38,530 nt of DNA from Bacillota bacterium (lineage in GTDB: Bacteria > Bacillota > Sulfobacillia > Sulfobacillales > Sulfobacillaceae): the NCBI GenBank assembly GCA_021841025.1, contig JAKBWA010000049.1, positions 1-38,530 on the forward strand. The letters are read 5' to 3'. This document shows, piece by piece, positions 6,116-29,966 of this stretch. Positions within the stretch are counted from its first letter, which is position 1. Each line of letters opens with the position of its first letter. Both the position numbers and the translations under genes were made by a program. The notes beneath the pieces were generated by a model. It was given only the letters and a program-made list of their open reading frames with translations. It made no database searches and had not been told where the DNA came from.

Positions 6116-6331
6116 ATGATGTGCTCAACCTCATCGAAGGCGCTGATGACCCTAGGGGTCGTGAGCGGTCTTCTCAATCATTGGTTTATCCTTATTGCGC
6201 TTTATCCGGTTACCGCAAATCTATTGTCGCGTTTGTTGCATCGCAACATCTGGCCAGCAAAGGCAATATGCCCCATACCGTCTAAATCAGCTTACGTTCG
6301 TTTAGAAGAAGGGATGGAGAAAACGAAATAA
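6116..6331 (+). CDS. Small membrane protein coupled to sulfurtransferase
   Basis: A 71-residue protein with one long or two short hydrophobic segments (residues about 9-37, LGVVSGLLNHWFILIALYPV), then a basic tail ending EEGMEKTK. An AAGGAGG site lies 4 bases before the ATG. Its stop overlaps the start of the following sulfurtransferase (TAATG), so the two are translationally coupled. I do not recognise the family with confidence. A YgaP-like membrane segment (DUF2892), often found with rhodaneses, is one possibility. Confidence 0.65.
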   Translation: MMCSTSSKALMTLGVVSGLLNHWFILIALYPVTANLLSRLLHRNIWPAKAICPIPSKSAYVRLEEGMEKTK

Positions 6332-7167
6332 TGTCCTTGAAATCAGCAAAATGGTTAGCTAGCGAAAATTCGGATCAGGTAGTCATTGTCGATTGCCGCT
6401 ACAATTTAACCGAACCAACCCAAGCTGCCCGGGATTATTGGCAGGCTCACATACCTGGAGCCCATTTTGCGGACCTCGAGTCCGATCTGTGTGCTCCCAA
6501 AACCCTTCATGGCGGACGCCATCCACTTCCATCCTCTCGCCAGTTTTCGGAACTCTTATCACGATTGGGATGGACAAAAGATAAAATGCTCATAGCCTAT
6601 GACAGTGAGGGGTCCGGTGCCGCGCACTTTTGGTGGCTATGCCACTATTTCGGTGTTGACCAGGTTAGCGTATTGCAAGGCGGGTTTCAGCAATGGCTCA
6701 ATTCGGGTTTTCCTGTTAGTACCGAGTCGCCTCACCTCAATCCGTCACCGGTGCCAGAACTAGTGCCTAATCCGTCGCTTGCGGTCACCAGAGATTTTGT
6801 ACTCGAACATCTCGGGCGCCGCCTGATGGTAGATTCCCGGTCATATGAGAGATACATGGGATTTCATGAACCCATTGACAGAGTTGCAGGCAGGATTCCA
6901 TGCGCCTATCATTACGATTACAAAAAGGTCTATAATTTACCTGGGGAGTATCATTCGACAGACGTTTTGAAGCATCACTTTTCGCCAATACCTACTGATC
7001 GTGGTGAAGCTCCCATTGTTTACTGCGGGTCGGGTGTTTCGGCATGTGCTAATGTTTTCGCCTTGTCCCTCATTGGCATTCCCGCTTTGTTGTACCCGGG
7101 CAGCTTTAGTGATTGGATCAGTTACGCGGACTCACCAATAGAACGGGGTGACGCACATGGAGTATAA
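6331..7167 (+). CDS. sseA: Two-domain thiosulfate/3-mercaptopyruvate sulfurtransferase
   Basis: Tandem-rhodanese enzyme of 278 residues that moves sulfane sulfur from thiosulfate or 3-mercaptopyruvate to a thiol acceptor. The N-terminal inactive rhodanese domain spans about 5-130 (WLASENSDQVVIVDCRY, then DSEGSGAAHFWW where the active Cys would be). The C-terminal domain carries the active-site loop CGSGVSAC with Cys232. CGSGV(T/S)A is the loop typical of the mercaptopyruvate branch, though thiosulfate use cannot be excluded. It is coupled to the genes on both sides (TAATG before it; its end overlaps the next gene). In an organism with an sHdr pathway such enzymes can feed TusA, but this copy is 12 kb from that cluster. 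Confidence 0.92.
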   Translation: MSLKSAKWLASENSDQVVIVDCRYNLTEPTQAARDYWQAHIPGAHFADLESDLCAPKTLHGGRHPLPSSRQFSELLSRLGWTKDKMLIAYDSEGSGAAHFWWLCHYFGVDQVSVLQGGFQQWLNSGFPVSTESPHLNPSPVPELVPNPSLAVTRDFVLEHLGRRLMVDSRSYERYMGFHEPIDRVAGRIPCAYHYDYKKVYNLPGEYHSTDVLKHHFSPIPTDRGEAPIVYCGSGVSACANVFALSLIGIPALLYPGSFSDWISYADSPIERGDAHGV

Positions 7168-18839: not shown

Positions 18840-19286
18840 TCAACTCAGAAGCTGAATCACCTCACCCAACCATTCTATGGAGACGAGATCTATGCCATCA
18901 ATCTCGGGAGACTGGCAGTCCAGCACCGCATAAACATGGCTATTCCGAATCAAAGGCAATCCGACTTCTGAACTGGTATTAAAGACTGCAGGAATGTATC
19001 CGGGAAATTTCTTGACCGACCCAACAATTTGGACAGCCCTTTCCGCAGCACACGATCCAATAATACCCTGGCCCCAAGGAATGATTAGGGGCCCGGGAGG
19101 TCCCGAAAACGGTCCTACCATTAAATCGTGGCCCAAATGGAATACCCGGTAAAATCCAATCCAAGTCCACTCGGGCCATAAGAGACGGATTTGCGCTACG
19201 GTATTCGCCATCACTGCTATATCATCGGGACTCTGTTGCTTCCACCGAGCAATGTCCGCCAATATCGATCTCAAATCCCTTTGCAT
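18840..19286 (-). CDS. GAF-domain protein related to fRMsr, catalytic cysteines missing
   Basis: A single GAF domain of 148 residues, closest by eye to free-methionine-R-sulfoxide reductase (MsrC/YebR): WTWIGFYRV, LMVGPFSG, IIPWGQGIIG, VKKFPGYIPA and LDCQSPEIDGID align in order. The three cysteines used by that enzyme are absent: they read Pro/Leu before IIP, Ile in GIIG and Ala in YIPAVF. Two other cysteines, Cys79 (GSCA) and Cys124 (LDCQS), are present instead. It is therefore probably a ligand- or redox-sensing GAF rather than the reductase. ATG 19286 follows GAGG by 6 bases. It is the last gene of the sHdr unit and abuts dsrE. Confidence 0.8.
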   Translation of the reverse strand: MQRDLRSILADIARWKQQSPDDIAVMANTVAQIRLLWPEWTWIGFYRVFHLGHDLMVGPFSGPPGPLIIPWGQGIIGSCAAERAVQIVGSVKKFPGYIPAVFNTSSEVGLPLIRNSHVYAVLDCQSPEIDGIDLVSIEWLGEVIQLLS

Positions 19287-19297
19287 GATGGACCTCA

Positions 19298-19678
19298 CTA
19301 AAAGCTTATCACCACATCTGACTCCAGTGCCATCTCGTTTACAGCACTGCCACCGACAACCCCTTCGGTTTCAATCAGATCATCAAGTGTGCAGTCATTC
19401 AAATCCAGACTCGGTGCACAAACGTAAAACTTAACCCCCGCATCACGCGCCTGGTCTATAAAGAACTGCAGGCGTGCCCCATCACCACCTTCTTTGACCG
19501 TTAATTCCTCCGCTACCCCATGTTTTAATAAAGCGGTCGCACGGATCGTGAACACCATGGACACATCATGATCCATAAGCGCTGCGGTCGTTGCCAAGAA
19601 GAACGGTGACGCCGCTCGGTACGAAACTTCGGGCCCCGTAGTGAGAACATACAAGAATTTTTTGACTTCAGAAGACAT
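19298..19678 (-). CDS. DsrE-family sulfurtransferase
   Basis: A DsrE/TusD-like protein of 126 residues that should carry persulfide sulfur. The fold signature begins KKFLYVLTTGPE, and the conserved Cys87 lies in VKFYVCAPSLDL; a second Cys96 follows (NDCTLDDLI). The C-terminal VVGGSAVNEMALESDVVISF fits the DsrE3-type branch found next to tusA in sulfur oxidisers; the exact subtype is inferred. The ATG at 19678 follows AAGGAGA. It is directly downstream of tusA, consistent with sulfur exchange between the two. Confidence 0.85.
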   Translation of the reverse strand: MSSEVKKFLYVLTTGPEVSYRAASPFFLATTAALMDHDVSMVFTIRATALLKHGVAEELTVKEGGDGARLQFFIDQARDAGVKFYVCAPSLDLNDCTLDDLIETEGVVGGSAVNEMALESDVVISF

Positions 19679-19705
19679 CACGGGTTCTCCTTTCGGTTAT
19701 CACAA

Positions 19706-19948
19706 CTATTTGGTCCGACGAATTAAAAAACGAAAGACCTCTCCCTCTTGCTCAGCCAACAATAGCTCATGTCCGGTGGATTTGGACCACGCTTTGAAAT
19801 CAGCCATGGAACCTGGATCTGTACTAAGCACTTCAACGACCTGCCCAATTTCAACACTGGTAATCCCTTTTTTGGCCCGAATAACCGGCATCGGACATTT
19901 CAGCCCGGAGGCATCCACCTTAAGATCGGCTTCAATCGGAGCATTCAT
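19706..19948 (-). CDS. tusA: TusA sulfur-carrier protein
   Basis: Small sulfur carrier of 80 residues with the CPxP motif (GLKCPMPVIRAKK); the active Cys is Cys18. The C-terminal part (VVEVLSTDPGSMADFKAW) is typical. In sulfur oxidisers TusA receives sulfane sulfur from rhodaneses or DsrE and delivers it to the oxidising complex. The start is placed at ATG 19948, where similarity begins. The frame is open to 19993, with AAAGG directly before an ATG at 19960. The next gene, 27 bases on, is dsrE. Confidence 0.93.
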   Translation of the reverse strand: MNAPIEADLKVDASGLKCPMPVIRAKKGITSVEIGQVVEVLSTDPGSMADFKAWSKSTGHELLLAEQEGEVFRFLIRRTK

Positions 19949-20270
19949 CTGCTCACACATCCTTTCAAAAAGTTTTACAATACAACAAAACACACTCGTT
20001 CAGCGCCGAATCTTGCATCCCCTATGACCACACTTTTCTTAAAAGAAGAGTCTTCCAAAGGCATTGGATGAACCCTTGCGATTTCCCGAAACCCTCTCTT
20101 CATAAACCATGGTGCCTGGGCGGGCACAAAAACTCGTAAGATTCCATTTACGGACCTCGCGCCAAACCTTGATCCCCCTTTAAACTTGATCGTCTTTTTA
20201 AGATGCGAGGGGCACCCTTCTCATCACAGCATCATTCTTGCCTCCTCATTCCCCGCACGCGAAACTCTGG
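19949..20270. other. Longest gap inside the sHdr unit
   Basis: About 320 bases between the second lipoate-binding gene and tusA. It contains a short dyad TTCTT-AA-AAGAA around 20035-20048 and no coding frame. It may hold a separate promoter for tusA-dsrE-GAF, but I could not assign hexamers. Confidence 0.4.
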
Positions 20271-20735
20271 TTATCCCAGCGAGTCATTCTCTACGGGCTC
20301 ACACCGGATGCACGTCAAGCCTTCTTCTTGCAGTTTAACACGGTACAAGCTGGCCACTTCGGACCCCTTAATTAAATGGGGAGTCGGCCAAGGGGTGCTA
20401 GCGCGAAATTCGACTATCCATCCCTCACCATACGGATCCCGGTTAATGATGTTGGGGTCCCTTAGCACATGTTGGTTGACCTTGACAATACTGCCGTCAA
20501 AGGGAGCCGGAAACGGTCCGACCCATTTCGCCGATTCGATCGTCGCAACATTCTTTGCCTCTTTAACCGTTTTCCCTTCTCGAGCCCGGACGTGCAGTAC
20601 CTTTCCGGCCCGGGTTTGAGCCGGATCAGTCATGCCTAGACGAAACACGCCGGACGGCATCGGGGCAACCCAGACATCTTTGTCCACATCAAACCAATAA
20701 TCGTCGGGGAATTCACAAGCAAAAACCTGGGCCAT
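20271..20735 (-). CDS. lbpA: Lipoate-binding protein, second copy (GcvH/LbpA-like)
   Basis: GcvH-fold protein of 154 residues whose lipoyl-lysine is expected at Lys70 in IESAKWVGPF, followed by the hairpin FPAPFDGSIVKVN. It differs from glycine-cleavage H protein in its N-terminus (Cys7 in FACEFPDDY) and in a C-terminal tail with CIRC (Cys142, Cys145). In sHdr organisms such LbpA proteins serve sulfur oxidation instead of glycine cleavage. No other glycine-cleavage gene is nearby. A GGGGGGAG ribosome site precedes it, and it starts 15 bases after the first copy. Confidence 0.9.
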   Translation of the reverse strand: MAQVFACEFPDDYWFDVDKDVWVAPMPSGVFRLGMTDPAQTRAGKVLHVRAREGKTVKEAKNVATIESAKWVGPFPAPFDGSIVKVNQHVLRDPNIINRDPYGEGWIVEFRASTPWPTPHLIKGSEVASLYRVKLQEEGLTCIRCEPVENDSLG

Positions 20736-20750
20736 TGACTCTCCCCCCTT

Positions 20751-21188
20751 TTATTGGGAACATTTAATGCCTTCTTGTTGAAGTTTCTCCCGGTACGACA
20801 ACACCCCCTCTTCACCGGTAACGAGCCTGTTTTTGTCTTCTTCCCAATTAGTCGGCCTGATTTTCAACAACCATCCCTTCCCGTAAGGATCTTCATTAAC
20901 GAGACTGGGATTGGCCTTTGCATCCTGGTTGACCTCTATCACCTCCCCTGCAACGGGGGTTGGGATCGAGCCCACCCACTTTCCACTTTCAAGAGTTCCT
21001 CCACTCTTGCCGCGGGCCAAGGTTTTGCCTGCGGACTTCAAATTCACTACAATAATCTTACCGGCAAGATTTTGGGCGACATCGCTTAACCCGATCACAA
21101 CCACATCGTCGTCAGGCTTCGCCCATACATGCTTCTCAATCCAGTAATACAAGTCCTCCGGTATGTTGCATCCGTCCACTACAGCCAT
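20751..21188 (-). CDS. lbpA: Lipoate-binding protein, first copy (GcvH/LbpA-like)
   Basis: GcvH-fold protein of 145 residues with the predicted lipoylation site Lys70 in LESGKWVGSIPTP. Cys7 (DGCNIPEDLYYW) and Cys143 at the extreme C-terminus (IKCSQ) are in positions like those of the second copy. The two share the frame KWVG..P.P...G.(I/V)..VN but differ widely in surface residues, so they are old paralogues rather than a recent duplication. Its gene follows the membrane reductase by about 20 bases. The expected role, known for the family, is as carrier or cofactor partner of the sHdr complex in oxidising sulfane sulfur. Confidence 0.92.
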   Translation of the reverse strand: MAVVDGCNIPEDLYYWIEKHVWAKPDDDVVVIGLSDVAQNLAGKIIVVNLKSAGKTLARGKSGGTLESGKWVGSIPTPVAGEVIEVNQDAKANPSLVNEDPYGKGWLLKIRPTNWEEDKNRLVTGEEGVLSYREKLQQEGIKCSQ

Positions 21189-21207
21189 AATCTTCCCGCC
21201 CTTTCGG

Positions 21208-23205
21208 TCATTTTATCGCCACCGCAGATTGCGGAACACTGAGTCCGACTGCCTGCGCCAAAAGCTCTGCTACGTCCACTACTTTGATGCGGTTCTCACT
21301 GCCCGTGCTTTGCACAGCTGCCGAAAACATCGACATATCCTTCGGGCATGCCACCACAAAATAATTAACATCGTTCAGGCTCAAAGCTTCTCGAATACGG
21401 TTGTCCGCGGGCCGCTCCTTAATACCCACTTCCTCCATCCATATCCGTCCTCCGCCGGCCCCACAACAGAAACTGTTGGCTCCATGGCGCGGCATCTCGA
21501 TCAGTTCAACTCCCATTCTCTCCAGCAATTGACGCGGTGCATCCAAGACGCGGTTCCATCGCCCTAGATAACAGGGATCATGATAGGTAACACGAATACG
21601 CAACGGAGCAGGAGAAAGGCGGCCCTGTTCGATAAGATCTAAGAAGGCTTGGGTGTAATGCTTTACGGGTTTTTCAAACCCAAACTTGCGATACTCGTTA
21701 CGCAAGGCATTGAACGAATGCGGGTCCGTGGTAAAGATTTGATTATACTGCGCACTTTCCAGCCATTTCAGATTTTTTTGGGCTAAAGTCTCAAACAACC
21801 CGAATTCTCCCAGACGTAAGGCTTCATTGCCCGCATTGGCTTCACCTTCATATAATATGCCAAAGTCTATACCGGCTTGTTGCAAAATTTGTGCAACCAA
21901 TCTTGAAAGTTCTTGCAACCGAGGATCATACGAAGCAAAATCCCCAACAAACCATAGCCAATCCACCGCTTCCTTACGGGCATCTTTTATCGGCGCCTCT
22001 AAGGCTTTTGTCCATGCTGGACGCTTGCGAGGAGGCTGACCAAACGAGTTGCCTTGTCGATCCCATCCCACTAAGACTTTTTGGCTATTTTTATCCACTT
22101 CTCCGTCTTCCAGCAACGCCGCCCGCAATCCGGCAATTTTGGGAACATGCTCAATAAATACCGGACAGGCTTCCTGACAAGCTCCGCATGTGGTACAAGC
22201 CCATAACTCTTCGGCTTTCACCACTCCTCCCGCCAAAGGCACCGAGTCTTCTCCATTCAATTCCTTGCGCAAGGCATCTCTCAATTCCAAAATCACCATT
22301 TTAGGAGAGAGCGGCTGTCCTGCGGCATAGGCCGGGCAGACGGCCTGACAGCGTCCGCACTCCGTACAGGTGAACAGATCCAAGACATCCTTCCAATTCA
22401 CGTCTGTAAAGGTTCGGATAGCCATGCCTTCATCTTCTGGCAATGGAGGCACCAACTCGCCATGAGGCCGCGTCTTGTGAAGAAAGATGCTCGGCACCGC
22501 CAAGAAGATGTGCAAGTGCTTGGAAGTCGGCAAATATGCCAGAAACGCAAAAACCATCCCGATGTCTAAAAGATAACCCAAGATGTATCCGCTCTCTGCA
22601 ACAACGGGATTAGAGGCCAAGTGAGTGCTAAGCCACAAATGTCCCAGCAAATAGCCGACAAAACCCCACGGATTGAGACTTGGGTGTACATGAAACAAAT
22701 ACGGGGCCGCAAAGGGATAAAAGGACTCATGCAAAAAGATTCCGATCATAATCGTGGCAATCATTGCCAAAATGATGTACCCATCTCTTTCGTCGGACCC
22801 ATGATAGCGCTCCGGTTTTATCACAGCTCGTTGGTAAACGGCCAATAAAATCCCAATCAGTACGAGAACCGCCCACAGATCGACAACAAAAGCCAAGGGT
22901 GCATCCAAGGTTATATGGGGATCAAAAACCTGCACAATAGCCGTGATAACATCAATCATCAAGACTACAAAGCCGCTAAAGATAAAGAAATGAAGAATCC
23001 CTGATAACCTTAGGCGCAATAAGCGCTTATGCCCAAAGACCTGGCCCAGCATAAAGCTGAGCCGCCTGGGCCAGTTATCCAATCGGTTTGTAGATCGGGC
23101 CTTTTGCATCACTCGAAAAATCGGGAGCATTCGATAGACGAAGTATCCCGTGGCCGACAGAAACATGAGGATGGTTAAGACCATTAAAATGTCTTGGCCG
23201 ATCAC
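21208..23205 (-). CDS. Membrane-bound Fe-S oxidoreductase (EtfAB:quinone reductase/HdrD-like)
   Basis: 665-residue protein with three parts. The N-terminal membrane domain (about 1-240) has five or six helices and histidines suited to heme b, as in NarI-type subunits. The ferredoxin domain has CxxCxxCxxxCP twice (Cys280-290 and Cys337-347). The C-terminal part has two CCG-type domains. The second CCG domain keeps its cysteines (Cys545, Cys580-581, Cys620), but the first (about 415-500) has none. This architecture matches DUF224 proteins that pass electrons from EtfAB to (mena)quinone. GTG 23205 follows AAGGGGGG, one base after the etfA stop. Placement next to etfBA supports that role. Confidence 0.88.
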   Translation of the reverse strand: MIGQDILMVLTILMFLSATGYFVYRMLPIFRVMQKARSTNRLDNWPRRLSFMLGQVFGHKRLLRLRLSGILHFFIFSGFVVLMIDVITAIVQVFDPHITLDAPLAFVVDLWAVLVLIGILLAVYQRAVIKPERYHGSDERDGYIILAMIATIMIGIFLHESFYPFAAPYLFHVHPSLNPWGFVGYLLGHLWLSTHLASNPVVAESGYILGYLLDIGMVFAFLAYLPTSKHLHIFLAVPSIFLHKTRPHGELVPPLPEDEGMAIRTFTDVNWKDVLDLFTCTECGRCQAVCPAYAAGQPLSPKMVILELRDALRKELNGEDSVPLAGGVVKAEELWACTTCGACQEACPVFIEHVPKIAGLRAALLEDGEVDKNSQKVLVGWDRQGNSFGQPPRKRPAWTKALEAPIKDARKEAVDWLWFVGDFASYDPRLQELSRLVAQILQQAGIDFGILYEGEANAGNEALRLGEFGLFETLAQKNLKWLESAQYNQIFTTDPHSFNALRNEYRKFGFEKPVKHYTQAFLDLIEQGRLSPAPLRIRVTYHDPCYLGRWNRVLDAPRQLLERMGVELIEMPRHGANSFCCGAGGGRIWMEEVGIKERPADNRIREALSLNDVNYFVVACPKDMSMFSAAVQSTGSENRIKVVDVAELLAQAVGLSVPQSAVAIK

Positions 23206-23206
23206 T

Positions 23207-24157
23207 CTATTCCCCCCTTAGCCTTTCTGTTAAGGCCGGCATAAGTTCTAACATATCCACCGTAGTTCCAAAATGGGCAATATCCATAATGGAGGCGTTT
23301 TCATCGGTATTAACGGCAATAATCAGATCCGCGTCTTTCATTCCCTGCTGATGTTCCGGAGCCCCTGATATACCGAAGGCCATGTACAGTTTCGGTTTCA
23401 CAGTTTGGCCGGATTTTCCGACCTGCCGGGACTTCGGCAGCCACCCAGCATCAACGACAGGTCTCGAGCAACTTACCACCCCACCGATAGCCTCGGCCAA
23501 TTCTTCAGCCAAAGTTAAATTTTCAGGACCTTCGATGCCTCGTCCCACACTGATCAAAATGTCGGCTTTGGTAATATCGACATCGCTCTTTTCCGGTTCA
23601 ATGGTCCGTAAGATCCTCATACTGGGCGGAATATCTACAGAGAGCACATCAACTTGCGGGGATCCCGAATCCTCTGTCGCACTCCAAGCTCCAGGCATGA
23701 CCGTCAGTACGGCACCCGATTTGGGCACCACAATCTCCGCCATCAGTTTACCGGCAAAAACCGATGATGTGGCCACCACCTCTTGACCGGCAATCGCCAC
23801 TTGATTGCAATAGGCTATCAAAGGCAACGATACTGAAGATGCCACTCCAGCGCCCAAATCCATTCCCATCGTGGTATTAGCCACCAAAGTCAGATAGGGC
23901 TCTTCCTTCTTGACAATTTCACTTAAAGTCTTTTCGTATGCCAACGGATGATACTGCGACAATTCGGGATTGGTGATTGCTATCACGCGGTCCACAGGAA
24001 GATTTTTGAGCTGACTCTCGGCATCCTGGCCAAAACCGACCGCAATCGATGAGATCTCAAGGTTTTTTGCAATCTCTCGCCCCTTGGTGATAAGTTCTTT
24101 ACTCGAATCGACAAAACCCGATGCGCCATTTTCCATCACAATCAGTATAGGTCCCAC
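23207..24157 (-). CDS. etfA: Electron transfer flavoprotein alpha subunit
   Basis: 316 residues. The C-terminal FAD domain is standard: SVGRGI, SRPVVDAGWLP, QVGKSGQTVKP, YMAFGISGAPEHQQGM and AVNTDENASIMDIAHFG. With EtfB it forms a soluble heterodimer that carries electrons from a dehydrogenase to the membrane. GTG 24157 is used; its ribosome site AGGAGGTAG contains the etfB stop codon, so the two are tightly coupled. In this cluster the donor is inferred to be the sHdr complex and the acceptor the adjacent membrane Fe-S protein. Confidence 0.96.
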   Translation of the reverse strand: MGPILIVMENGASGFVDSSKELITKGREIAKNLEISSIAVGFGQDAESQLKNLPVDRVIAITNPELSQYHPLAYEKTLSEIVKKEEPYLTLVANTTMGMDLGAGVASSVSLPLIAYCNQVAIAGQEVVATSSVFAGKLMAEIVVPKSGAVLTVMPGAWSATEDSGSPQVDVLSVDIPPSMRILRTIEPEKSDVDITKADILISVGRGIEGPENLTLAEELAEAIGGVVSCSRPVVDAGWLPKSRQVGKSGQTVKPKLYMAFGISGAPEHQQGMKDADLIIAVNTDENASIMDIAHFGTTVDMLELMPALTERLRGE

Positions 24158-24162
24158 AATAT

Positions 24163-24930
24163 CTACCTCCTCAGCAAGTTGCGTTCTTGAAGAATCTCAG
24201 CAATTCTAGCGGCCACGTCCTCAACATCCCCGTCGACCATTTCAGCGTGAGCGGATGCCACTGGTTTATAAAAGCGGCGAACCGTAAGCGCCGGAACATT
24301 CGACAGTGGCACTTCCACTTCTTCGATTTGCCGACTCTTTGCGACTTGCCGGACTTTGGCAATAGAGGCATACCGGGGTGGTTTGCGAGCCGCTTGGATT
24401 CCCACAACAACAGGGGTTGATGATTCGATTTCGGCTACGAGTCCTCCGGCGTACTCTTGACGCAGAATGATGCCTTGGTCTTTGACGCGAACTTCCGTCA
24501 CAACTGATGCATGCGGCCATCCCATGATGCCCGCTACCAACCCAGGAATCTGCCCATCCACATCGTCGATCGCTTGAACTCCCGACAAGATCAAGTCAAA
24601 TGGTTGTTTATGCAAGTAATCGGCGAAGATTTGCGCCCGTTGCCGATTAGTCAGAGACAAATCAAAATCACCGACCAACTTGACGGCGTTATCCGAGCCT
24701 TTAGCCAATGCCGTAAAGAGAAGGTTATCGCTGTCTTGGGTCTCTATGCTCACGGCAGTAACCTCGGCACCGGATTCTTCCTTTATCACCAGAGCTTCTT
24801 CGAGAGCCTGATCATCCCACTCACTCGGAACATAACTCATCTCATCGAACAGTATCTGACCCTCATGTTCATCCAATGCAATATCTTCCACCAAATCGGG
24901 AACAGATTTCATCAACACTGCAATGTGCAT
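24163..24930 (-). CDS. etfB: Electron transfer flavoprotein beta subunit
   Basis: 255 residues beginning MHIAVLMKSVPD, with the nucleotide-binding segment QAIDDVDGQIPGLVAGIMGWPH and the region VVGIQAARKPPRYASI that corresponds to the recognition-loop area. AMP or a second FAD binds here in different ETF classes; which one cannot be decided by eye, so confurcation or bifurcation is possible but unproven. The ATG follows AGGAG. It lies 28 bases after the fused hdr gene and is coupled to etfA. Confidence 0.95.
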   Translation of the reverse strand: MHIAVLMKSVPDLVEDIALDEHEGQILFDEMSYVPSEWDDQALEEALVIKEESGAEVTAVSIETQDSDNLLFTALAKGSDNAVKLVGDFDLSLTNRQRAQIFADYLHKQPFDLILSGVQAIDDVDGQIPGLVAGIMGWPHASVVTEVRVKDQGIILRQEYAGGLVAEIESSTPVVVGIQAARKPPRYASIAKVRQVAKSRQIEEVEVPLSNVPALTVRRFYKPVASAHAEMVDGDVEDVAARIAEILQERNLLRR

Positions 24931-24958
24931 AATCTCCTGACTCCTCCCATTAGTAACT

Positions 24959-26242
24959 TCAATTGGCCATGACTAATGAATCCACCAACCCCATCGCGTA
25001 AGCTAGCAACTCCGTAATATCCATAACTGCCAGCTTGCCAGCATTGCCGGTAGACTTGACAGCGTCTTCAAATCGAGGAACTTCATAAGGACAACTCACT
25101 GCCAAGATATCCGCCCCATATTCCACAGCTTCTTTGACCCTTCGCTCAGAAAGCCGTTCACTGGCATAATCCCGGGTGAAGCTGTCAAGCCACATTCCCC
25201 CGCCGCCGCCTCCACAGCAGTATGACGTTTCACGGCAATGTCCCATTTCTACCAGATCCACTCCTGGCAACGCTTTTAACAGTTGACGGGGGGCATCATA
25301 CTCGCCGTTGTGGCGCCCTAAGTAGCAGGGGTCATGAAATGTCACACGGTAAGGGATGTCGTGAGTAAAACTCATATCCGGCAGACGCTGAGATAAGTAT
25401 TGCGTGTAGTGCTGAACCACATATTCTCCTCCATATTTGGGATACTCGTGAAGAAACGCGTTGTAGGCATGAGGGTCTGTCACCACAATCTGATTAAACG
25501 AGTATTTGGACAGCATCTTGATGTTATGCTCTGCCAGCATTTCAAACAGGCCATGTTCTCCCGCCATGCGTTGGGAATCCCCGGAACATTTTTCCTCGTT
25601 TCCCAAGATTCCGAAATCAACATGCAAAGAATCAAACACTCGAGCTAAGGCTGTCGACGCTTGTTTGCCGCGGGGATGATACGAAGGATAGCATTCGACA
25701 AACCACAGCACATCGACAGGAGACTTTTTCTGGGACATGATGGGGACTGACACACCTGCAGACTTAGTCCACTCGGCCCGCTTGCGACCAGGCTCCCCAA
25801 TAGGATTACCGTAGCGAGCCGTATTTTCAAAGGCCTGCAGTAATTCCTCAGGGGCATTGCCCTCTAACACTGCCCGCTCTCGAACCGCTGGCATGATGTC
25901 AATCATGTTTACTTCTTTAGGACAGACTCTCAGACAATTTCGGCACGTTGTACACAACCACAAATCGGGTGAGTCCATAAGGGAGATGCCTAATTGGGTC
26001 CGGCGAAAAATCTTACGGGGAGAATAGTCTCCGACGGTGTCCACTGGGCAAACTCCAGTGCATTTTCCGCACTGATAGCAATATCCCAAAGACTCGGCTC
26101 CTGGTATAGCGGTGATTTCATCCAAGATTGAGAGATCATATTCCGATATAGCTCTTGGTTCGAACATGCGATTCCAGGATCCCTTTAACTCGACCCCATC
26201 CACGACGGCCACGTCTAGTTCAATGGGCTTTGCTTTTTGCAA
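24959..26242 (-). CDS. Fused sHdrC2-sHdrB2 subunit
   Basis: 427-residue protein joining an HdrC-type ferredoxin domain to an HdrB-type domain. Two CxxCxxCxxxCP motifs (Cys55-65, Cys97-107) are followed by two CCG-type modules. The second module has Cys306, Cys336, Cys342-343 (YCCGGGGGG) and Cys384. The first module retains only Cys184 and Cys219. In many sHdr clusters C2 and B2 are separate genes, so this is an HdrD-like fusion. The start is set at TTG 26242 because GGGAGGG lies 8 bases upstream; it overlaps the preceding gene by 23 bases. The longer frame to 26323 has no such site. The protein is expected to be part of the cytoplasmic sHdr complex. Confidence 0.9.
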   Translation of the reverse strand: MQKAKPIELDVAVVDGVELKGSWNRMFEPRAISEYDLSILDEITAIPGAESLGYCYQCGKCTGVCPVDTVGDYSPRKIFRRTQLGISLMDSPDLWLCTTCRNCLRVCPKEVNMIDIMPAVRERAVLEGNAPEELLQAFENTARYGNPIGEPGRKRAEWTKSAGVSVPIMSQKKSPVDVLWFVECYPSYHPRGKQASTALARVFDSLHVDFGILGNEEKCSGDSQRMAGEHGLFEMLAEHNIKMLSKYSFNQIVVTDPHAYNAFLHEYPKYGGEYVVQHYTQYLSQRLPDMSFTHDIPYRVTFHDPCYLGRHNGEYDAPRQLLKALPGVDLVEMGHCRETSYCCGGGGGGMWLDSFTRDYASERLSERRVKEAVEYGADILAVSCPYEVPRFEDAVKSTGNAGKLAVMDITELLAYAMGLVDSLVMAN

Positions 26243-26930
26243 CGCTATAACCCTCCCATCTCGCAATTCCGAGCAAATTAGCCACCACCTTTGGAAAATG
26301 GGGCAGGACTTGCGTAAATTCATCAGTTAAACGCCATGATGCCAAGGTGAAAAGGTAAACCGCATACACCATCGCCAGGGCCACCATATGGCGATAGGGT
26401 GAATCAATGAGGTAAGGACGGCGCCACCCTTCAAGCACCTGCTCCGCAAAATGGCCCGTGCGCAGAATTTGAGAATACAAAAGACCCGGTTCCACCATCA
26501 AACAAGTAGGATCTGTAAGCACCAACGCTATAGCTCCGGTCTTGCTATCAGCCCGGTACATCCAGCGTGACCACCACACATAGTCCTCGGGATACGCGTT
26601 GGCTATCCAAAAGGTTCCCCACTCCCACAGCCATGGCGGTGCATTGCCGTGGGCCAAAATTTCAATGACTCGCCCGGGTTCATGGTGTTCCACGGCCCCG
26701 CGAATCAAAGCTTCCACCTTCCTCCACATATCTTGTTGTTCTGGTTTGATACGAGACGTGGAAGGCACGACCCGAAGACATTGCTCGGGATCGTCGAGCG
26801 GTTCGAGGATGTTCTGGGAGCGGGTGGCTAAAACCTCGTTCCAATATCTGCAATCGGCCTGGGACACCATAGATTCCGCCTTATCCAGAAATTCTACGAG
26901 AGCTTCTGCATCAATCACCGGTGGTGTCAT
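26220..26930 (-). CDS. sHdr-cluster protein of unknown function
   Basis: 236-residue soluble protein rich in tryptophan (PPWLWEWGTFW, YVWWSRWMYR) with no cofactor motif and few cysteines. Its position between hdrA and hdrC2B2 is that of the 'hyp' gene conserved in shdr operons, and this synteny is the main evidence. It may be an assembly factor or structural subunit (inference). The ATG at 26930 overlaps the hdrA stop (TGATG), and its 3' end overlaps the next gene, so all three are translationally coupled. Confidence 0.85.
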   Translation of the reverse strand: MTPPVIDAEALVEFLDKAESMVSQADCRYWNEVLATRSQNILEPLDDPEQCLRVVPSTSRIKPEQQDMWRKVEALIRGAVEHHEPGRVIEILAHGNAPPWLWEWGTFWIANAYPEDYVWWSRWMYRADSKTGAIALVLTDPTCLMVEPGLLYSQILRTGHFAEQVLEGWRRPYLIDSPYRHMVALAMVYAVYLFTLASWRLTDEFTQVLPHFPKVVANLLGIARWEGYSVAKSKAH

Positions 26931-27988
26931 CACACGTGCAAGGCGGAGCGGTTTAACACGCCAACGGCCTTTGCCGCTGCCGCGGCTCCCATAGACACGG
27001 AATCCTCGATATCTTTTGGGCCCGCAGCCGCTCCTGCCACAAAGATTCCCGCCACAGGCGTTGAAACCGTATCCAAGGGTCCTCCGACAACCTGAAGGAA
27101 TCCATGCTCCTCCCGAGGGATTTGAAAAATGCGTGACATTTCGATGGTGCCCTTGGATGGTTCCATCCCCACGGATAAAATAACCAGATCCATCAGAACC
27201 TCCATCGGGCGCCCCATCGTGGTATCTTCGCCTTTCACCAGCAATTTATCGCCTTTTTTGATAATTTCAGTGACGATTCCGCGAATGTAATTGACCTTGT
27301 ACTCCTCTTGGGCCTTCCAGTAGATCTGATCCTCCCAGAAGCCATACATCCGCATATCAATATAGAAGATGAAAACCTTGGAATTGGGTAGCATACGCTT
27401 AATTTCAATGGATTGTTTGGATGCGATGCCACAACATACTTTGGAGCAATACTTGTTGCCGATTTGACGATCTCTAGACCCAACACATTGGATAAATGCC
27501 ACTTTTTCCGGCGGCTCTTGAGTTGAGGGACGAACCACTTTACCTTCCTTGAACATTTTTTCCGCATCGACCAAGGTAATTACATCATCATACTCATAGT
27601 ACCCGTACATCTGGGTTTCTCTGCCGGGATCAAAATGTTGAAAACCCGTGGCCACAACGATAGCGCCAACTTCCTCCACAGTTTCCTTACTCTCCTGTGA
27701 CAGACTCACGCGAAAGGCACCGAGTGCGCCTTCGCTTTTAACAATGCGGGTATTGACCCTGACATCCACCGCAGGATTTTGTTGTACGGCATCCAGCATG
27801 TGCTTCATACTGGCTTCGGTTTCCTTTAAATCTGGCGTCAAGGTAGCATAAGACGCATAAGGCGTGCCACCCAAATCCGCTTTGGCCTCTACCAAAATAG
27901 CCTTTTTTCCCAATTCGGCGACGGTTCTAGCGGCTTCCAAGCCAGCTGGCCCCGCTCCCACAATCAGTATTGTATCCGCGTTTGCCAT
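26930..27988 (-). CDS. hdrA: sHdrA, FAD-binding subunit
   Basis: 352 residues: a compact HdrA without the extra ferredoxin domains of methanogen HdrA. The FAD site is ILIVGAGPAGLEAA with GG at 40-41 (ADLGG). A cysteine cluster follows: Cys168 (QCVGSRD), Cys181, Cys185 and Cys186 (YCSKVCCG), characteristic of HdrA proteins and likely binding an Fe-S cluster. The C-terminal FVAGAAAGPKDIEDSV segment completes the flavin domain. AGGAG lies 9 bases before the ATG. In sulfur oxidisers this is the flavin core of the complex that handles sulfane sulfur. Confidence 0.95.
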   Translation of the reverse strand: MANADTILIVGAGPAGLEAARTVAELGKKAILVEAKADLGGTPYASYATLTPDLKETEASMKHMLDAVQQNPAVDVRVNTRIVKSEGALGAFRVSLSQESKETVEEVGAIVVATGFQHFDPGRETQMYGYYEYDDVITLVDAEKMFKEGKVVRPSTQEPPEKVAFIQCVGSRDRQIGNKYCSKVCCGIASKQSIEIKRMLPNSKVFIFYIDMRMYGFWEDQIYWKAQEEYKVNYIRGIVTEIIKKGDKLLVKGEDTTMGRPMEVLMDLVILSVGMEPSKGTIEMSRIFQIPREEHGFLQVVGGPLDTVSTPVAGIFVAGAAAGPKDIEDSVSMGAAAAAKAVGVLNRSALHV

Positions 27989-28019
27989 TCGTTCGATCTC
28001 CTGCCTTTCCGCGCTTAAG

Positions 28020-29219
28020 TTAGAGAACGTGTTCCCACGTCAGATACTCCATCTCTCCCTGTTTCACTTTGTCGACGTCTGATTGAAATTCAGACCATGC
28101 CTTATCGACATCGATGCCCATCTTCTCCAAAAGCAGTCTGTAATCGACAGAATGCCAGTGCAGCTGGGTAACACGAAAAGGATGGGCTCCTAATGCCAAC
28201 GCGGCAAACTGAGATTCAGACATCACTGGCACTCCCACATTCCGGCCATGCGCTTGAGCCGCAAACTGGCTTTTATCCAAGGATGTAACACAACCGGTAT
28301 CATGGGTTAACACCACATCGGGATTGGCTTCTTGCTTCATCACCTCAATTTTGCGCAGGGTTGCAAAACTGCGGGTGAAGTCACGCTGCACCAAAATATG
28401 CCGAAATCCAAAACCACAGCAGTCATACCAGGTCGAATAATCCGCCACGTTGGCACCAAGCGCCTGAACAACGCCGGTCACTGCAGCAGTTCTTTGCCCT
28501 CCATAAATTTCGGGGTCATAAATAGCATCGCCCGTCTGCAATTTATAGTAATGGCAAGCCGGATGTACAGTAGCGGTGATGCCTGACACATCTAGCTGAC
28601 GCCTTGTTGCTAATTCCTCTCGAACGGCATACATCCATTCGCTGTAATGCACAATTTCTTCGGGCATCACAAACGGACGACCTAGCTTTTCAATGATGTT
28701 TCGCACTTGACGCCGCAATTTGGCATCATGCACTAATTCATGCCGAACTTCTTTGTAGTGCCCGAAACTGGTTCCACAATGAATGAGAGGAAAATATCCG
28801 GTTTCATATGCTGCCGAAAAGTTTCGCATGGCTACTGCTGCCTGTGCAGCCTGATTGGACGTGGCGGAAGCGTAATAATTCCAAGCAGTACACGAGGTTT
28901 GGTCTCGAGGATCGAAATAGTCGTATCCCAACACGCGGTTAAGCCAAAAGATGGAGGTGGAATACCCGGGAATATGGCCACACTGCCCACAACTCTTGTG
29001 ATGCCATGTGTGTTCCAATGGAATTTTCTTCAATCGGCCGTATTTTGTGGGAGCCAAATAATATGGCTCGGGCACCGGCTGCACAATCCATTCGCCTTCG
29101 CGCCCCAATTCCCATATCGCTTCCCTCAGGTCCTCATCACGCACCGTCTCAGGATCGCGCTCAAACTTCCGGGACGTTTCCACCTTGGTTCCGTTTACCC
29201 GAACATCCAATGAGTCCAT
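28020..29219 (-). CDS. hdrB: sHdrB1 subunit (CCG domains)
   Basis: 399 residues. An N-terminal extension of about 90 residues precedes two CCG-like modules. The first contains CGQCG, TSCTAW and HCGTSF. The second contains HPACHYYKL, YDCCGFGF and DTGCVTSLDKSQ. Such modules bind the noncubane Fe-S clusters of HdrB; the last motif shows one Cys where a CxxC is usual. AGGAGG lies 9 bases before the ATG. It sits 31 bases before hdrA and 60 bases after hdrC1. It is expected to form a complex with HdrC1 and HdrA in the cytoplasm. Confidence 0.93.
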   Translation of the reverse strand: MDSLDVRVNGTKVETSRKFERDPETVRDEDLREAIWELGREGEWIVQPVPEPYYLAPTKYGRLKKIPLEHTWHHKSCGQCGHIPGYSTSIFWLNRVLGYDYFDPRDQTSCTAWNYYASATSNQAAQAAVAMRNFSAAYETGYFPLIHCGTSFGHYKEVRHELVHDAKLRRQVRNIIEKLGRPFVMPEEIVHYSEWMYAVREELATRRQLDVSGITATVHPACHYYKLQTGDAIYDPEIYGGQRTAAVTGVVQALGANVADYSTWYDCCGFGFRHILVQRDFTRSFATLRKIEVMKQEANPDVVLTHDTGCVTSLDKSQFAAQAHGRNVGVPVMSESQFAALALGAHPFRVTQLHWHSVDYRLLLEKMGIDVDKAWSEFQSDVDKVKQGEMEYLTWEHVL

Positions 29220-29279
29220 CTCGCTTTGCCTCCTTTTGAAATTGCCTAAATTTGTTGATGAAGGACTTAGGTAGAGCGG

Positions 29280-29966
29280 CTACTCCGCTACTAGCCCACT
29301 TTCTTCCAAAGCATCATCCATGATCTCCTCCATGATGTCGTGAAGACCCTCATCGAGCTCACCAATCATGTCGAGACATCCAGTCATTTTCCAAATCGCA
29401 TAGAGTTCGTGCATCGTCCGTTCTTCAACTTGCCAAGATAATCCGGTGGTATGCAACGTTTCCGGCGGAAGCACGCGGCGCCAAACGTCCAGGTTTTCGG
29501 ATACCGCTTTGACTTGGGGTCCCCAATCAGGGAAAGCATCTTCTTGCAGCATGTCAGGCGATACTTGGGTCCCTGTCGTCATAATTTTGTAAATAATGCG
29601 GGTATACCCCGCCAAAGCTTCTTTAGTCGTTCGCAGTCCATTTTTGACAGCCACTTCTCGCATTATAGTAATGAGCCCGCCCGGGCTATTTTGTCTGGGG
29701 CATCGGTTGCAGGAAAAACACTGAGAACAGTTCCATACATCATCATTTAGTTGCTCGTAAAAAAGTTCAACATCTTCACGCGCCAGTGTTTGGGTTATTT
29801 TTCTCGGAGAAAAATCGTAAAATCGCGCTGAAGGACAAGCTGCCACACAAATTCCACATTCATAACACCCATATAAATAACTCTCATACCGCGCATCCGC
29901 CTTAACTTCATTAAAGAGTCGTTGTTTTTCTTCAAGCGCAACATCGGTATATCGATCAGAGGGCAT
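29280..29966 (-). CDS. hdrC: sHdrC1 subunit (ferredoxin-like)
   Basis: 228 residues with two cluster motifs. The first is canonical (CYECGICVAACP, Cys34-37-40-44). The second is CSQCFSCNRCP (Cys80-83-86-89), one residue shorter than the usual CxxCxxCxxxCP. The helical C-terminal half (about 100-228) is typical of HdrC. AGGAG is close before the ATG at 29966, with a further GGAGG upstream. This is the first gene of the sHdr unit and passes electrons between HdrB1 and HdrA. Confidence 0.93.
   Translation of the reverse strand: MPSDRYTDVALEEKQRLFNEVKADARYESYLYGCYECGICVAACPSARFYDFSPRKITQTLAREDVELFYEQLNDDVWNCSQCFSCNRCPRQNSPGGLITIMREVAVKNGLRTTKEALAGYTRIIYKIMTTGTQVSPDMLQEDAFPDWGPQVKAVSENLDVWRRVLPPETLHTTGLSWQVEERTMHELYAIWKMTGCLDMIGELDEGLHDIMEEIMDDALEESGLVAE

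Follow-up and report, generated by a model that had tools for sequence, protein, structure and literature searches.

The window analysed here, a whole stretch of 38,530 nucleotides (contig JAKBWA010000049.1 of assembly GCA_021841025.1), came from a relative of Sulfobacillus, and its positions 18840–29966 very probably hold a type II sHdr-LbpA operon, in which carrier-delivered sulfur would be oxidized by an sHdr complex and the electrons would pass through the electron transfer flavoprotein (ETF) EtfAB and an EtfAB:menaquinone oxidoreductase (EMO) to menaquinone. This assignment was built on the gene content, the synteny across phyla, the conserved lipoyl lysine, carrier cysteines and heme ligands, the homology and fold of the EMO, and the behaviour of etfBA and the EMO gene as a block. 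The fused iron-sulfur protein of the operon, sHdrB3 (B3), was 89% and 82% identical to its named close matches in S. benefaciens AMDSBA1 and S. thermotolerans Kr1, respectively.

The cluster is one already published under three names. The hdr gene cluster II, syntenous in all Sulfobacillus genomes, contains hdr genes, etfAB, and the gene of a long HdrC-like protein with six transmembrane helices and CCG domains (Justice et al. 2014, PMC4378227). The same arrangement was termed Group III (PMC6067878, 2018), and type II sHdr was defined by shdrC1B1AHB3 and etfAB in one cluster (PMC11582611, 2024). In the window, the genes of C1, B1, A, Hyp, and a fused B3 were found with etfAB in one syntenic cluster, together with lbpA encoding the lipoyl lysine. 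The separate C2 and B2 with canonical B2 CCG motifs, which characterize type I, were not found in this cluster, where the CCG half of a single fused protein scored 15 bits against type I B2. The sequence-only reading, which described an sHdr-lipoate unit wired to EtfAB and a membrane quinone reductase, was supported by synteny and EMO homology, but the wiring is not new and had already been published. The additions made here are the details of the iron-sulfur ligands of EMO and B3, the resemblance between these two proteins, the block behaviour of etfBA-EMO, and the loss of a ligase gene.

Organization of the operon

The 13 open reading frames (ORFs) were all located on the minus strand between 29966 and 18840. 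Neighbours were separated by 1–60 bp or overlapped slightly; only tusA stood further off, 277 bp downstream of the second lbpA. Features are listed below in the direction of transcription, with the evidence for each assignment.

29280..29966, minus strand: sHdrC1, 228 aa, Fer4 electron-carrier subunit (Pfam Fer4_8; 55–97% identity to type II orthologues)
28020..29219, minus strand: sHdrB1, 399 aa, CCG protein, proposed catalytic subunit (Pfam CCG)
26930..27988, minus strand: sHdrA, 352 aa, FAD/Fe-S flavoprotein (Pfam Pyr_redox_2; synteny)
26220..26933, minus strand: Hyp, 237 aa, conserved shdr-associated protein (position kept in type II loci)
24959..26242, minus strand: sHdrB3, ~427 aa, two Fer4 clusters and two CCG domains (Pfam Fer4/CCG; closest solved structure EtfD)
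24163..24930, minus strand: EtfB, ETF beta subunit, 255 aa (Pfam ETF; solved relatives)
23207..24157, minus strand: EtfA, ETF alpha subunit with FAD domain, 316 aa (Pfam ETF and ETF_alpha; solved relatives)
21208..23205, minus strand: homologue of the EMO/EtfD-type EtfAB:menaquinone oxidoreductase, 665 aa (phmmer, ligand survey, AlphaFold2/Foldseek)
20751..21188, minus strand: first LbpA, lipoate-binding, 145 aa, lipoyl lysine K70 (Pfam GCV_H; alignment)
20271..20735, minus strand: second LbpA, lipoate-binding, 154 aa, lipoyl lysine K70 (Pfam GCV_H; alignment)
19994..20270, minus strand: 277-bp gap, site of a lipoate-protein ligase gene in relatives
19706..19993, minus strand: TusA sulfur carrier (Pfam TusA; alignment)
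19298..19681, minus strand: DsrE-family sulfurtransferase, 127 aa (Pfam DsrE; alignment)
18840..19298, minus strand: degenerate GAF-like protein, 152 aa (alignment of 23 sequences)
18821–18792, minus strand: strong intrinsic terminator with a 13-pair stem, directly 3' of the GAF-like gene, the last of the operon

The 13 tightly packed, co-directional genes of the sequence-only reading were borne out by these coordinates, and their families, except that of the GAF gene, by the Pfam scan, which returned Fer4, CCG, pyridine-nucleotide-disulphide oxidoreductase, ETF alpha and beta, two GCV_H, TusA, and DsrE. Hyp gave no match in the Pfam scan, and a promoter scan gave matches at chance level. The gene called C2B2 in that reading was indeed a single Fer4 and CCG fusion, but its CCG half was unlike type I B2, and its start is probably not the boundary of the ORF (24959–26323). 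Translation very probably begins at TTG 26242, because the longer reading is interrupted by stop codons in relatives and the TTG follows a ribosome-binding site (GGGAGGG). The start of tusA is likewise likely to lie downstream of the ORF start, since the first TusA residues were not conserved.

The order of these genes is consistent with a plausible route. Sulfane sulfur from DsrE and TusA would be loaded onto lipoylated LbpA, and the LbpA-bound sulfur would be oxidized to sulfite by the sHdr complex, composed of C1-B1-A-Hyp and B3. The electrons would exit via B3 to EtfAB, which would in turn reduce the adjacent EMO. Within EMO, a noncubane-type site would receive them first, followed by two [4Fe-4S] clusters and then heme b, from which menaquinone would be reduced. 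For this route we infer the substrate, the direction, the subunit donating to ETF, and quinone as the acceptor.

Conservation of gene order

A genome scan based on B3 gave 80 related loci, whose records bore the names of Bacillota, Chloroflexota, Bacteroidota, Calditrichota, KSB1, Gemmatimonadota, and Actinomycetota, among others. The comparison with other shdr loci that the sequence-only reading had proposed as a check thus showed a near-invariant order. The EMO gene came next after etfA, within 2.5 kb downstream, in 59 of the 59 loci that contained etfA and at least 2.6 kb of downstream sequence. Within the Sulfobacillus family (34 genomes), a close B3 was present in 23, the type I HdrB2 in 11, and both in 9.

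Loci from Verrucomicrobia, Acidobacteria, and Armatimonadetes (L089–L091, L093–L096, L098, and L099) did not contain C1, B1, Hyp, or LbpA. The sufficiently long ones carried B3-like, EtfBA, and EMO genes, most of them with HdrA, and genes for an Oxidored_q6 and an HdrC-like protein were further present in L096.

The present genome also contained a type I sHdr cluster on contig C1 (L018:81–9600), encoding a thioredoxin-like protein, LbpA, B2, C2, Hyp, A, B1, C1, and DsrE, and accompanied by divergent tusA, dsrE, and lipoate ligase genes. The window shared with type I sHdr (shdrC1B1AHC2B2; Hyphomicrobium/Acidithiobacillus type) homologues of C1, B1, A, and Hyp as well as LbpA, TusA, and DsrE, whereas C2 and B2 are individual proteins in type I, and the cluster on contig C1 included neither etfAB nor EMO. 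The B1 of the window was 53% identical to the type I HdrB1 of its own genome and 64–96% identical across type II loci.

The putative membrane quinone reductase

The 665-residue protein is a homologue of EtfD/EMO by sequence, fold, and heme ligands. EtfD of M. smegmatis (9ojn) is a structurally characterized wire from ETF to menaquinone, and the window protein matched it in phmmer with an E value of 2.8e-89 and 31% identity. The AlphaFold2 model (pLDDT 90.9) gave EtfD as the top Foldseek match, with a TM-score of 0.89. The heme ligands His72 and His232 and all eight Fer4 cysteines were invariant in 43 aligned homologues. The protein, which has a membrane domain, shared with EtfD the two [4Fe-4S] sites, the heme histidines, and the fold.

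The two proteins differed in the CCG domains. In EtfD, four cysteines hold the linear [3Fe-4S] cluster D1, whereas all four were absent from the CCG domains of the window protein and of every correctly assigned sHdr-linked EMO, in which the fifth D2 cysteine was also replaced by aspartate (CPKD). The sequences of L045 and L088, mis-assigned or truncated, were excluded from this set. A paralogue on contig C58 of the same genome (L103:1417–3471; 38% identity) kept every cysteine of D1 and D2, and both kinds of EMO are thus encoded in this genome. The D1 cysteines were also kept, wholly or mostly, in all 20 Bacillota comparator EMOs.

The D1-less state characterizes a broader ETF-linked subfamily and not sHdr, because five D1-less EMOs from Proteobacterial plasmids interleaved with the sHdr-linked ones in a FastTree phylogeny. 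Absence of D1 as a hallmark of sHdr-linked EMOs was ruled out by this result. The first tree had placed the sampled sHdr EMOs in one clade (UFBoot 96), and this single clade was dropped once the five plasmid sequences were entered. These DgcB-type EMOs of Proteobacteria resembled the sHdr-linked ones, being mostly CPKD and, where annotated, adjacent to etfBA; however, the three annotated plasmid clusters combined etfBA with a GMC or other FAD-dependent oxidoreductase and not with sHdr. D1 does not define the family, since FadF and DgcB were also described without it in the EtfD paper (9ojn), which suggests that ETF reduces D2 directly.

B3 and its relationship to EMO

In the 2024 description of type II (PMC11582611), B3 corresponds to C2 and B2 in fused form. 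In contrast to this view, the profile of its CCG half was much closer to EMO (243 bits) and the EMO paralogue (240 bits) than to the type I HdrB2 of the same genome (15 bits). The full B3 profile gave 87 bits against type I C2, and the closest solved fold was EtfD, with a TM-score of 0.78. These comparisons suggest that B3 descends from an EtfD/HdrD-type protein and not from a C2-B2 fusion. No closer kinship is claimed. A close sister relationship to EMO was rejected, since in the tree B3 fell together with some Bacillota proteins that are soluble and HdrD-like.

A more specific proposal, which we regard as possible but somewhat doubtful, is that B3 is a soluble EtfD/HdrD-type protein and not an sHdrC2-sHdrB2 fusion, and that EtfAB might shuttle electrons from B3 (donor) to EMO (acceptor), docking on both of these homologous proteins. 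Of the D1-type cysteines, B3 retains two; these were present in 50 of 81 sequences but had been lost from most Chloroflexota and from some other loci, and are therefore probably not essential. B1 is a better candidate for catalysis than B3.

EtfBA and EMO as a unit

The behaviour of the etfBA-EMO genes supports one functional unit that is exchangeable relative to sHdr, because they were both relocated together and replaced as a block. In one gene order of Sulfobacillus (IIb), etfBA-EMO followed dsrE together instead of B3. In Alicyclobacillus tolerans (L030), C1, B1, A, B3, and DsrE were 76–86% identical to the window proteins, whereas EtfB, EtfA, and EMO were only 39–45% identical and had their nearest relatives outside Bacillota. 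In L032, as in L030, etfB-etfA-EMO was apparently swapped as a block beside sHdr genes that remained Sulfobacillus-like. Distance correlations across the cluster genes were uninformative outside Bacillota.

Sulfur carriers and lipoate ligase

The functional residues of the carriers were strictly conserved. The lipoyl lysine K70 of LbpA was identical in 62 of 62 sequences in both lbpA alignments, Cys33 of TusA in 53 of 53, and Cys88 of DsrE in 50 of 50.

In most Sulfobacillus relatives, a lipoate-protein ligase gene (lpl; ~350–369 aa) is located between the second lbpA and tusA. The corresponding gap of the window (19994–20270; 277 bp) contained neither this gene nor a recognizable remnant, and the gene was also missing in the two closest relatives (L020 and L021). 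In all other respects, the gene order of the window matched that of its closest relatives. The ligase gene was lost from this position in the present genome, and the word complete, which the sequence-only reading had applied to the sHdr unit, was an overstatement; the gene is usual in Sulfobacillus type II clusters and forms no part of the type II definition. Homologues were found elsewhere in the genome, on contig C1 beside the type I sHdr cluster (49% identity) and on contig C85 (33% identity). On contig C85 (L198:2511–7194), two lipoate-ligase-like genes flanked a GcvH-like gene and were followed by two radical SAM genes, a pair that by position resembles LipS1/LipS2.

A two-domain rhodanese gene (3-mercaptopyruvate/thiosulfate sulfurtransferase-like) was located at 6331–7167 of the window, ~12 kb from the operon.

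The GAF-like gene

The last gene of the operon (18840–19298), possibly regulatory, was matched only in Bacillota among the sHdr loci compared. Its product gave no Pfam or NCBIfam match, and the GAF fold was recognized by eye alone. A role as free methionine-(R)-sulfoxide reductase was not supported: conserved catalytic cysteines, which we take to be the mark of that enzyme, were not found among 23 homologues, where no cysteine of the window protein was conserved above 0.26.

Expression and alternative explanations

Published expression of type II hdr genes is mixed. In S. thermosulfidooxidans, Sulth_2770, Sulth_2771, and Sulth_2782 were strongly expressed and rose together with tetH and rhodanese genes; the spacing of the locus tags suggests that Sulth_2770 (C1) to Sulth_2782 (DsrE) form a type II cluster including the ligase gene. 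Several points weigh against the route from sHdr through EtfAB and EMO to menaquinone. Transcripts of the six hdr genes of S. acidophilus TPY (TPY_3527–3532) were somewhat more abundant with FeSO4 than with S0, a pattern at odds with simple induction by sulfur. The class of the ETF appears ambiguous, with coupling to NAD or ferredoxin among the possibilities, and B3 is a putative donor to ETF by homology only. The literature examined contained no biochemical data on a type II sHdr and no experiment on its oxidation of sulfane sulfur to sulfite in vivo.

The HdrA proteins of methanogens bifurcate electrons, and a bifurcating or confurcating EtfAB, which would divide the electrons between menaquinone (via EMO) and ferredoxin or NAD, would also agree with the best solved matches of EtfA, all bifurcating ETFs (C. 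difficile 5ol2, 7koe, and CarE). We consider this unlikely, as the best solved match of EtfB was by a wide margin the non-bifurcating ETF of Methylophilus, and the cluster included no separate ferredoxin- or NAD-dependent partner gene. The pathway is equally unlikely to be mainly a thiol/disulfide redox system for persistence in energy-limited cells instead of dedicated, growth-supporting sulfur oxidation. The homologous 19-gene cluster of Thermomicrobium roseum (Chloroflexota), for which electron transfer via ETF was proposed, in keeping with the route above, was indeed upregulated 45-fold under nutrient limitation (PMC6776052), and the TPY transcripts were not raised on S0; however, proteobacterial sHdr-LbpA is genetically required for the oxidation of thiosulfate to sulfite, and the S. 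thermosulfidooxidans hdr and dsrE genes were very highly expressed in bioleaching together with those of tetH and rhodanese. Least probable, the conserved order would be only inherited with a horizontally transferred block and would say nothing about direct electron transfer between the products. The interleaving of sHdr-linked EMOs with those of other oxidoreductases shows that EMO is not exclusive to sHdr, but etfBA-EMO was retained beside sHdr in several phyla, occurred as one set at another place in the cluster, and in one genus was exchanged as one set with the adjacent genes unaffected.

Implications

How sulfur oxidizers with sHdr pass electrons to respiration has been proven only in small part. 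In several phyla, type II clusters have EtfAB and a quinone reductase next to sHdr, and a direct test is therefore possible. The homology of B3 and EMO and the absence of D1 give concrete predictions of where ETF would dock and which cluster it would reduce. If the proposal for B3 is true, type II sHdr would be a distinct electron-exit architecture, with an ETF-docking module in place of the C2B2 arm, and etfBA-EMO would be a portable quinone-reducing cassette common to other dehydrogenases.

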